From the NCBI GenBank assembly GCA_946186925.1, contig CAMHPA010000005.1:1-64000 (forward strand): DNA of 64,000 bases. The letters are read 5' to 3'. A model generated the notes under the pieces. The model saw only the letters and a program-made list of their open reading frames with translations. It was not told the origin of the DNA and did not search any database. This document shows positions 16,619 to 60,640 of the stretch, one piece after another; within the stretch, counting starts at the first letter, position 1; each line of letters opens with the position of its first letter. This DNA is from an uncultured Bacteroidota bacterium (GTDB lineage: Bacteria; Bacteroidota; Bacteroidia; Bacteroidales; SZUA-534). The translations under genes were made by a program, and so were the position numbers.

Positions 16619-16670
16619 GATACAAGGAATCAAAAGCTTAGAAAAACAAATAGACTATCATTCTCGCATT

Positions 16671-16718
16671 CAGTTAATCAATCCATCAGTTAATCAATCC
16701 ATCAGTTAATCAATCCTT
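16671..16718 (+). repeat. Tandem 16-bp repeat (2 x octamer) directly before asnB
   Basis: Three copies of CAGTTAATCAATCCAT are present, the third ending in TT. They are placed head to tail and stop 3 bases before the asnB ATG. Each 16-mer is two related octamers (CAGTTAAT, CAATCCAT). The array occupies the position where a ribosome binding site would lie, and no GA-rich site is seen. Confidence 0.9.
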
Positions 16719-28690: not shown

Positions 28691-28726
28691 AAGTAGAATA
28701 TACTTTTTGCAAGACGTTAAGGATGA

Positions 28727-28870
28727 GATGGTTAAGATAGTTTAAGGTTTTAGAAGTTTAGAAAGTAGAGAGAGTTGAGAAGGTTGAGTTGTTTAGAAAA
28801 CTAAACAGCGAAGCACTAAACTTTCTAAACAGCGAAGCGCTAAACTTCTCAACCGCGAAGCGCTCAGCCT
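28727..28870 (+). repeat. Octamer-phased leader with 24-bp repeats before araD
   Basis: Nearly the whole 140-base stretch reads as degenerate octamers. The clearest part is a 24-bp unit: CTAAACAGCGAAGCA at 28801, CTAAACAGCGAAGCG at 28825 and CTCAACCGCGAAGCG at 28848. The upstream half (AGTTTAGAAAGT, GTTTAGAAAAC) is partly complementary to these units, so long hairpins are possible. The core CTAAACAGCGAAGCG recurs at 58948 in front of the GH43 gene. Confidence 0.8.
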
Positions 28871-28901
28871 TAAAAATCTTGCAGAACAAAAAAATGACGA
28901 T

Positions 28902-29612
28902 ATGTTAGAAGAATTAAAAGAAAAAGTGTTCAAGGCCAATCTCGACCTTGTGAAACAGGGACTCGTGATTTTCACCTGGGGCAACGTTTCGGGCATCGAC
29001 CGCGAAAAGGGCCTTGTGGTTATCAAGCCTTCGGGCGTGTCGTACGACGAAATGAAGGCTTCAGATATGGTGGTTGTCGATTTACAGAGCGGCAAGGTGG
29101 TTGAAGGCGACTTGAATCCGTCGAGCGATACCCCAACGCATCTGGCTCTATACAAGGCTTTTCCGAACATCAAGGGTGTTGTGCACACACACTCAACCTA
29201 TGCTACAGCGTTTGCGCAGGCTGGCCGCGACATTCCGAATATCGGCACCACTCACGCCGACTATTTCTACAAGGACATTCCCTGCACCCGCGATATGACA
29301 AAGGCCGAAGTTGAAGGTCAGTATGAGTTGGAAACAGGCAATGTGATTGTTGACGAGTTCTTGAATATCAGAAAGATAAATCCAGACCACACGCCTGGCG
29401 TACTGGTCAAGAACCACGGCCCGTTCTCGTGGGGCACATCGCCCGACAACGCCGTCTACAACGCCAAAGTAATGGAACAATGCGCTAAAATGGCGTTTGT
29501 GGCGTTCTCAGTGAATCCGAACACAACAATGAATCCGTTGCTTATCGAGAAACACTATAGCCGCAAGCACGGACCAAACGCTTACTACGGACAAAAAGGA
29601 CAAAAACATTAA
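28902..29612 (+). CDS. araD: L-ribulose-5-phosphate 4-epimerase
   Basis: This class II aldolase-fold enzyme (236 aa) converts L-ribulose 5-phosphate to D-xylulose 5-phosphate, the last step of arabinose catabolism. N-terminal WGNVSGID and KPSGVSYDE bind the substrate phosphate. The zinc ligands are in [12 protein letters not shown], with the C-terminal [12 protein letters not shown] segment. The araA gene starts 33 bases after its stop, so the two are almost certainly one transcript. Confidence 0.95.
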
Positions 29613-51754: not shown

Positions 51755-53767
<2,013 letters not shown>

Positions 53768-53780
53768 GATTCTTTTGGCA

Positions 53781-55878: not shown

Positions 55879-55880
55879 TT

Positions 55881-55920
55881 GTCTAATCGTTTAATTGTTC
55901 AATCGGTCAATCGTTTAATC
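55881..55920. repeat. Octanucleotide repeats directly before the second GH97
   Basis: Five in-phase octamers on the plus strand: GTCTAATC, GTTTAATT, GTTCAATC, GGTCAATC, GTTTAATC. They end 2 bases before the ATG when read on the coding strand. Confidence 0.85.
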
Positions 55921-55972
55921 GATTATTCATTTAATTGTATTTTAAGTACTTACCATTCGTTCCCAATCATTC

Positions 55973-56004
55973 AATTCACCGTTTCACCAGTTCACCAATT
56001 CACC
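55973..56004. repeat. Octanucleotide repeats after the third GH97 stop
   Basis: Four in-phase octamers: AATTCACC, GTTTCACC, AGTTCACC, AATTCACC. They begin just after the stop codon at 56006 in reading direction. They carry the same TTCACC core as the GH43 leader, but in the opposite orientation relative to transcription. Confidence 0.8.
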
Positions 56005-56005
56005 G

Positions 56006-57883: not shown

Positions 57884-58882
57884 TTATTTTGTCTGATTAA
57901 CGAATTTGATTGTTCCGTCGGCGTTGAATTCCATTTCGTCAACGCAAACCGAGCGGCGTCCGATGGCGCCCTTCACGCCGTCGATTTCGAGCGTGGCGTT
58001 GTGGTAGAACAGCCACCATTTGCCGCAGAACTCAACCACCCCAGGGTGGATTGTGAAACTGTTCGCGGCTTCGCCCGTAACCTGCCCGCGGGGTGTCCAC
58101 GGGCCGCTGAACGACGGCGCTGTGGCATAGTCGATGGCTTCGCCGCCACGGCCCCACGACGCGTAAATCAGGTAGCAGGTGTCGTTGCGCTTTGTGAGCC
58201 ACGGGCCTTCGGTGTATTTCGGTACGTTAACCACCTGAATGTCACTGTCTAACTCAATCATATTGGGCTTGAGTTTGGCCATAAAGCAAGTGCCGTTGCC
58301 CCAGCAGAGCCAGGCGTCGTCGCCGTCGATGTAAACGGTCGGGTCGATGTCGTTCCACCAACCGCGAGCACCGTTCGAAGTCATTGTGTCACAAATAATT
58401 GGCTTGCCGATTGCGTCAACAAACGGACCCGTCGGCGAGTCGCTCACAGCCACGCCGATGGCGTAACCCGAGTACGGCTGCTTGCCTTGGCAGGTGATGT
58501 AGTAGTAGAATTTGCCGTTGCGCTCAACCACTTGCGCAGCCCAGGCCGTGCCCACTTTGGGCGTCACGGTATCGGCCCACGCAAAATCGCCAGGGCGCAG
58601 CACCGAGCCGTGGTCGGTCCAGGTTTCCATATCGGCGGTCGAGTAGCAGAGCCACTCGGTGATGTTGAATTCCTTGCCGCCGCCAGCGCTGTCCTGACCA
58701 GGATAGAACTCGTCGTGGCCAACGTACAGATAGAGCCTGTCACCCGAAACCATTGGTGCGGGGTCGGCAGTGAACTTATTGCGAATGAGCGGGTTGCCTT
58801 CGAAAGTGAAGGTGTTTTGCGATTGCTGCGCCGTGCAGCCAACCGCCAGCAGAGCCAGCCCGAAAAGAAGGTTTTTGTTCAT
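57884..58882 (-). CDS. GH43 glycoside hydrolase (arabinofuranosidase / xylosidase type)
   Basis: This 332-aa five-bladed beta-propeller enzyme has a short lipoprotein signal (LLAVGCTAQQ). Inverting catalytic residues are seen as ADPAPMV (base Asp), WWNDIDPTVY (Asp) and YTEGPWL (acid Glu). It is a bare GH43 with no extra C-terminal domain. The subfamily and choice between alpha-L-arabinofuranosidase and beta-xylosidase cannot be settled from sequence here. It leads the GH43-GH97-GH97 run. Its leader is a long octamer array. Confidence 0.9.
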   Translation of the reverse strand: MNKNLLFGLALLAVGCTAQQSQNTFTFEGNPLIRNKFTADPAPMVSGDRLYLYVGHDEFYPGQDSAGGGKEFNITEWLCYSTADMETWTDHGSVLRPGDFAWADTVTPKVGTAWAAQVVERNGKFYYYITCQGKQPYSGYAIGVAVSDSPTGPFVDAIGKPIICDTMTSNGARGWWNDIDPTVYIDGDDAWLCWGNGTCFMAKLKPNMIELDSDIQVVNVPKYTEGPWLTKRNDTCYLIYASWGRGGEAIDYATAPSFSGPWTPRGQVTGEAANSFTIHPGVVEFCGKWWLFYHNATLEIDGVKGAIGRRSVCVDEMEFNADGTIKFVNQTK

Positions 58883-58891
58883 TGTTTTAAT

Positions 58892-59054
58892 GTTTAATCG
58901 GTGAATTGGTGAATCGGTGAATCGTTTAAGGGTTTAAAAGTTTAAGACTAAACAGCGAAGCGACTTACCCCCTAAACCCTTACCAACACCCAACACCTAA
59001 CACCCAACACCATTCTGTTAACAACTTATAACTTAATAACTTATAACTTAAAAC
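58892..59054. repeat. Long octamer-phased leader before GH43
   Basis: From 58892 the plus strand is a run of octamers in one phase: GTTTAATC, GGTGAATT, GGTGAATC, GGTGAATC, GTTTAAGG, GTTTAAAA, GTTTAAGA, CTAAACAG, CGAAGCGA. CTTACCCC, CTAAACCC and other ACC-rich units follow, then an ACTTATA/ACTTAATA array to the CE1 stop. The core CTAAACAGCGAAGCG (58948-58962) is shared with the araD leader 30 kb away. No gene is seen in it. Confidence 0.85.

Positions 59055-60640
<1,586 letters not shown>

Follow-up and report, generated by a model that had tools for sequence, protein, structure and literature searches.

We find that the stretch once read as a leader before a GH43 gene is a complete gap between two genes, and that similar tandem arrays occupy about 16% of the intergenic regions sampled, the sample covering 26% of the genome. 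We class the arrays with the intergenic heptanucleotide repeats, as a variant in which the units are degenerate and the words many. We put at roughly 60% the probability that they are near-neutral filler of the heptanucleotide (STRR/LSSR) type, grown by slippage and templated repair. As a general rule, the leader reading is already contradicted. Since arrays are found in about one-sixth of sampled gaps, congeners have or lack them at the same locus, and their polarity is seen across phyla, their origin is directly testable.

Tandem arrays in the window

The DNA analysed (the window) is 64,000 nucleotides long. The whole of the flagged stretch is a 172-bp gap (58883-59054) between two co-directional minus-strand genes, an esterase gene upstream (59055-60203; PF00756, E = 2e-21) and a GH43 gene downstream (57884-58882; PF04616, E = 3.4e-40). 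In the coding direction the gap runs from the esterase stop codon, TAAGTTTTAAGTTATAAG..., to just short of the GH43 ATG. An array of eight degenerate octamers (58883-58946, minus strand; plus-strand consensus nGKTKAAn) adjoins this ATG on its upstream side, and its coding-strand form, GATTCACC/TTAAAC, is C-rich. The units in order from 58883 are TGTTTTAA TGTTTAAT CGGTGAAT TGGTGAAT CGGTGAAT CGTTTAAG GGTTTAAA AGTTTAAG ACTAAACA GCGAAGCG. The 8-base phase noted here was borne out by a local lag-8 score of 22.5 (58883-58945), which none of 5000 dinucleotide shuffles matched, either at lag 8 or as the maximum over lags 2-30. TRF called two repeats within the array, 58896-58924 and 58924-58947, both of period 8.

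The array is followed by the word CTAAACAGCGAAGCG (outward form CGCTTCGCTGTTTAG; 58947-58963, minus strand, located by sequence), a hinge at which the polarity of the array switches from the G-strand to the C-strand side. Across intergenic regions (IGRs) the hinge word faced outward 17 times against 6, and its density was 3.5 per 10 kb of IGR compared to 0.17 in coding DNA; genome-wide, AGCGAAGCG occurred 90 times and a control 61 times. Two further arrays lie on the esterase side, both on the minus strand and called by TRF. The ACC-rich stretch, which had been taken for octamers, is heptameric, comprising 4.1 copies of CCAACAC (coding strand GGTGTTG; 58983-59011; lag-7 score 17.0). The noted ACTTATA array is present at 59023-59058 and is likewise of period 7, with five copies of AACTTAT (coding strand TAAGTTA), the first unit lying at the esterase stop codon TAA (coding orientation ...AAATAAGTTTTAAGTTATAAG).

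Similar arrays had been reported before other genes of the window, always near a start codon. We located them at 16670-16716, 28754-28864, 53740-53768 and 55884-56004, and none was found for the zinc-ribbon gene. The gap between two GH97 genes (55879-56005, minus strand) has period 8 (lag-8 score 17.5; TRF), with GGTGAAT words on one side and GATTAAAC on the other. The array region before the gene at 28902 (approximate limits 28707-28880, plus strand; lag-9 score 11; TRF 28754-28864) is preceded by a terminator-like hairpin. In the co-directional gap before 16722, TRF called 2.9 copies of TCAGTTAATCAATCCA, a 16-base unit of two octamers (16670-16716, plus strand), and it called 3.6 copies of AATCGGTC at the start of the gene 51755-53749 (53740-53768, minus strand). 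The listed arrays do lie near start codons, because all of them sit between co-directional genes; for the same reason they also follow a stop codon.

Abundance, turnover and known repeat classes

The host genome (G000) is a 3.32-Mb draft metagenome assembly (MAG) of 148 contigs, and the named records carrying the same genes as the window are rumen Salinivirgaceae MAGs. We surveyed about 26% of the genome as two samples of stretches together with the window, and added pattern searches. The first sample (396 kb plus the window) was picked in part near AGCGAAGCG sites, and the held-out sample (400 kb) was picked regardless of content. Gene ends were taken from a home-made gene caller, and an array was called at a local repeat score of at least 12 in the first sample and at a threshold of 11 in the held-out sample. 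Among the 217 gaps of the first sample, arrays were detected at lag 7 in 25, at lag 8 in 11 and at lag 9 in 3, with corresponding counts of 21, 7 and 3 among the 167 held-out gaps. Lags 2-6 and 10-13 each gave 0 or 1 of the 217 gaps, and shuffles gave close to none; length-matched coding pieces yielded 1.1 calls against 32 in the observed gaps. Thus the predicted lag-8 signal in intergenic DNA is real, exceeding shuffles and non-multiple lags, yet the main period is 7.

Typical of the most frequent array words are AAGTTTA, GTTATAA, TTTAGGA and GGTGAAT. Two words were searched in 11 genomes of the genus, and GATTCACCGATTMACC was found in 10 and CTAAACTTYTAAAC in all 11, with reversed controls near zero and few matches outside the genus; on these two words the array word set looks genus-specific. 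Congeners differed in density (10 of 27 gaps with arrays in G010 against 3 of 30 in G008), and two of four family-level genomes, each sampled lightly, were without arrays. Most of the other Bacteroidales sampled showed the same periods, at lower density (arrays in 2 of 44 Bacteroides-like gaps, 5 of 83 Prevotella-like gaps and 6 of 39 gaps at other Bacteroidales loci).

The comparison of repeat number between relatives revealed unit-sized gain and loss among array alleles. Named relatives with arrays at the loci examined are MAGs, not isolates. At the esterase-GH43 locus, L004, a relative whose esterase is 95% identical, shares the array apart from gaps of 7, 7 and 9 bp; three others (L001, L003 and L054; 97.7-98.7% identity) have different arrays, and L002, at 98.96%, has none. 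The gap between the GH97 genes has three alleles, one of them 44 bp long and without an array, and an allele difference of 8 bp was found from L008. An array of about 190 bp before 28902 is present in G000, G002 and G003 and absent from G001 and G004 (by locus, present in L126, L129 and L130 and absent from L127 and L128), and both genes flanking the array-free gap of G004 are 97-98% identical. Array alleles differed by 7, 7, 9, 8 and 8 bp, compared to 1-2 bp for array-free alleles. At two loci the DNA is replaced from stop codon to start codon. Because flanking identities at the tested loci are mosaic, the genes there recombining, some of the turnover may reflect the import of whole alleles. 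The array-free esterase-GH43 allele of L005, L006 and L008 contains CTCGCGAAGCGA and, where the array would be, an ordinary terminator-like hairpin with the inverted repeat AAAAGYNACTC...GGGTGGCTTTT.

Successive units differed by C/T mismatches at 0.182 against 0.063 expected and, in slight excess, by A/G mismatches at 0.268 against 0.219, which is the expectation for duplication followed by point mutation. Together with the unit-sized steps of 7 and 8 bp between alleles, this mismatch pattern supports the original proposal of repeat expansion.

The proposal that standard feature types do not cover the arrays is right as regards annotation, but the literature already describes heptanucleotide short tandem repeats in bacterial intergenic DNA (PMC4692102, PMC4679880). 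Like STRR/LSSR repeats, the arrays are intergenic tandem repeats with a unit of about 7 bp, in excess of chance, with periods of 8 and 9 as well, and they change in length by whole units between relatives. The units were not perfect or near-perfect; they are degenerate, with several words per gap, and the arrays are therefore a variant and not a plain member of the class. The STRR heptanucleotides of heterocystous cyanobacteria, as they are described, are similarly non-coding tandem heptamers spread genome-wide. A 2007 report ranked heptamers first in number among the long simple repeats of most bacterial genomes.

Rehm et al. (2015, PMC4692102) placed the GGGNATC and GGGGA(C/T)T heptamers of Xanthomonas and Anabaena on the non-coding strand in the 50 bp upstream of genes and on the coding strand in the 50 bp downstream. 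Our arrays resemble them in being of period 7, intergenic, scarce in divergent gaps and variable among close relatives, and in having the same polarity. Those heptamers, however, are G-rich and quadruplex-capable and occupy relatively stable loci, whereas a single gap in our genome mixes many degenerate words with periods of 7-9, most of them lacking GGG runs; no dominant GGG unit was present among the commonest array words. The TAACTGA heptamers of Beggiatoaceae, cyanobacteria and some Bacteroidetes (MacGregor 2015, PMC4679880) are likewise intergenic, with 7-nt indels between strains and relatives that lack the array at the same locus, and TAACTGA gaps in G. forsetii and A. sublithincola also hold other heptamers. 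In the main genome of that study a single word lies mostly 5' of starts, whereas here many words are used and stops are equal to starts. The literature searched yielded nothing direct on heptamer arrays specific to Bacteroidota.

Outward polarity and the origin of the arrays

In array gaps, the strand that leaves a gene in the 5' to 3' direction is G-rich at both kinds of edge, start and stop. Within 30 bp of a gene, polarity was outward in 78 cases and inward in 9, with the G-strand leading away from the gene at both edges, as in the Rehm-type heptamers. A G-rich left half was combined with a C-rich right half in 42 of the 49 co-directional array gaps and in all 6 convergent and all 5 divergent ones. 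Single words also faced outward at both edge types (outward to inward: GTTATAAG 28:2, AGTTTAG 49:8, TTTAGGA 33:6 and GGTGAAT 42:8); GAGTTGA and CGAAAATC showed no such bias at edges. Skew was 0.105/-0.108 in array gaps compared to 0.009/-0.020 in the non-array gaps of the same genome. The G-strand led outward in 14 of 16 arrays of other Bacteroidales (p = 0.004).

If the arrays are filler, an array would begin at the edge of a gene, in DNA that holds no essential signals, either following a break or gap or through slippage. It would then lengthen through slippage and the copying of short words from other arrays, and the growth step of 7-9 nt may reflect the length of DNA held by the polymerase, as has been suggested in print for heptamers. 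Arrays would be tolerated wherever no promoter or terminator is lost. The outward polarity of the G-strand would arise if the growing strand is each 3' end running out of a gene. Against the filler reading, slippage by itself explains neither why a set of words is shared nor why the polarity is outward.

A directional form of gap repair would place the polarity at the centre: after a break or a deletion between genes, each 3' end would be extended with C-poor, telomere-like words in steps of 7-9 nt, and the ends would then be joined. Outward G-strands at both edges of co-directional (42/49), convergent (6/6) and divergent (5/5) gaps agree with this, as do the independence of left and right arms, the stop-to-start replacement at two loci, and the passage of 9 of 46 arrays through a stop codon into the upstream gene. 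However, no enzyme was identified and Ku is absent, the sharing of words demands an extra source of template, and the C/T excess between units suits ordinary duplication and mutation; we therefore consider this course of events unlikely. That Ku-independent outward extension of 3' ends rebuilds gene gaps, as one widespread mechanism in Salinivirgaceae, other Bacteroidales, Xanthomonas and Anabaena, appears equally doubtful. If it were true, the arrays would be telomere-like, gene-outward remains of gap rebuilding in templated steps of 7-9 nt. Non-homologous end joining with Ku was rejected as the source of filler: Ku was found in none of 30 genomes, and the B. subtilis positive control was detected.

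The polarity could in part be explained by two translation constraints, namely a shortage of G in the leaders before starts, and DNA after stops that is rich in stop codons and poor in C. Stop codons per nucleotide on outward strands near stops amounted to 0.104, against 0.083 in shuffles and 0.068 on inward strands. On the other hand, non-array gaps showed little of the skew of array gaps and identical words face outward at starts and stops, and it seems improbable that these constraints are the source of the polarity. That the same words face outward at both edges while ordinary gaps are almost unskewed speaks for a cause in the way the arrays form; outward extension of 3' ends during gap repair would produce such a polarity. 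Stop-codon cassettes were rejected as the sole reason for the words, the excess being only moderate and present at start edges too. A Y1/RAYT transposase was also set aside as the spreader, since most congeners have 1-2 copies and several other genera as many or more, and it is therefore not specific. Insertion of a mobile element with target duplication was dismissed, no duplication being visible by eye at one empty-site locus.

RNA structure and position relative to genes

REP/BIME elements occupy co-directional and convergent gaps and are not found at promoters. The arrays resemble them in their co-directional and convergent placement, and might act as intercistronic hairpins in which the G arm after a stop pairs with the C arm before a start, stabilising or separating operon messages. 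The esterase-GH43 gap reaches a folding energy of -47.6 kcal/mol (z = -3.9). Across array gaps, however, the fold z of -2.1 equalled the -2.0 of non-array gaps, and a gap's own arms were no more complementary than swapped arms (duplex energies, p = 0.26; alignment scores, p = 0.93). The mismatch of left and right arms argues against hairpin elements and terminal inverted repeats, and conserved hairpin or cruciform arms were accordingly rejected. Unlike REP/BIME, the arrays have no conserved palindrome and pair their arms at chance level, and such hairpins are, in our estimate, slightly less likely still than the alternatives above. The stability of array gaps relative to shuffles (z about -2), although non-array gaps equal them, was counted against the filler reading too, as the arrays may have an RNA role. 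A search of the window with Rfam returned a tRNA alone, and no riboswitch or other RNA family at the arrays.

In co-directional gaps, 50 of 242 start edges and 43 of 242 stop edges had an array no more than 40 bp away (p = 0.49). Among divergent start edges the count was 4 of 134 (p = 5e-7 against the co-directional starts), and among convergent stop edges 8 of 106; the edge counts held under three gene-calling settings. TAnnTTTG is a promoter-like motif of Bacteroidota. It was present in 10 of 46 array gaps compared to 56 of 143 other co-directional gaps, and on either strand in 40 of 46 divergent gaps. Together with the edge counts, this scarcity indicates a preference for promoter-poor gaps that separate co-directional genes and probably lie within operons. 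Eleven of 46 arrays overlap coding sequence: 9 cross the upstream stop codon, 3 go beyond the downstream start, and one of these does both.

These counts bear on the proposal of a family of leader elements, in which the repeats are selected as control sites for translation or transcription just 5' of starts. Many arrays do end 0-10 bp before a start codon, the coding strand on the start side is C-rich and G-poor, and TAACTGA provides a precedent, having been proposed in Beggiatoaceae as control sites bound by S1, Csp or CsrA-like proteins (PMC4679880). Arrays are nevertheless as dense at stops and rare at divergent starts, and the orthologous GH43 genes of L002, L005, L006 and L008 have no array at all, which leaves this the least likely of the readings weighed. 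The sampled gaps showed no preference for start codons, an outcome that the original prediction had itself named as counting against it. No sequence-specific regulatory role was detected in the sampled arrays, and any effect on an operon would be exerted through spacer length and weak RNA structure. Such arrays should not be taken for regulatory leaders.

Several other elements were observed beside the arrays. The dispersed palindrome CCCGATAGYTATCGGG (L002, 10257-10442) is present in 11 of 11 genus genomes, with 48 strand hits in G000 and none for controls, and also in several genera of the family and three genomes of other families of the order. In L002 it lies within an array, beside a duplicated TAAACAGCGAAGC, and a near-match was seen in the window in the gap 60204-60640. 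A second palindromic intergenic word, GTAGAGACGYGGCGCGCCRCGTCTCTAC, occurs in or beside arrays in L086 (4801-5382), L087 (8376-8523) and L080 (2753-2952). Finally, the gap at 18920-19452 of L105 contains a short ORF-like stretch with arrays on either side (GTTGAAACGCTTCGCTGTTGAAC ... CTTGTTAAACCCGTTAAAC), which looks as if a small gene lies between two arrays.
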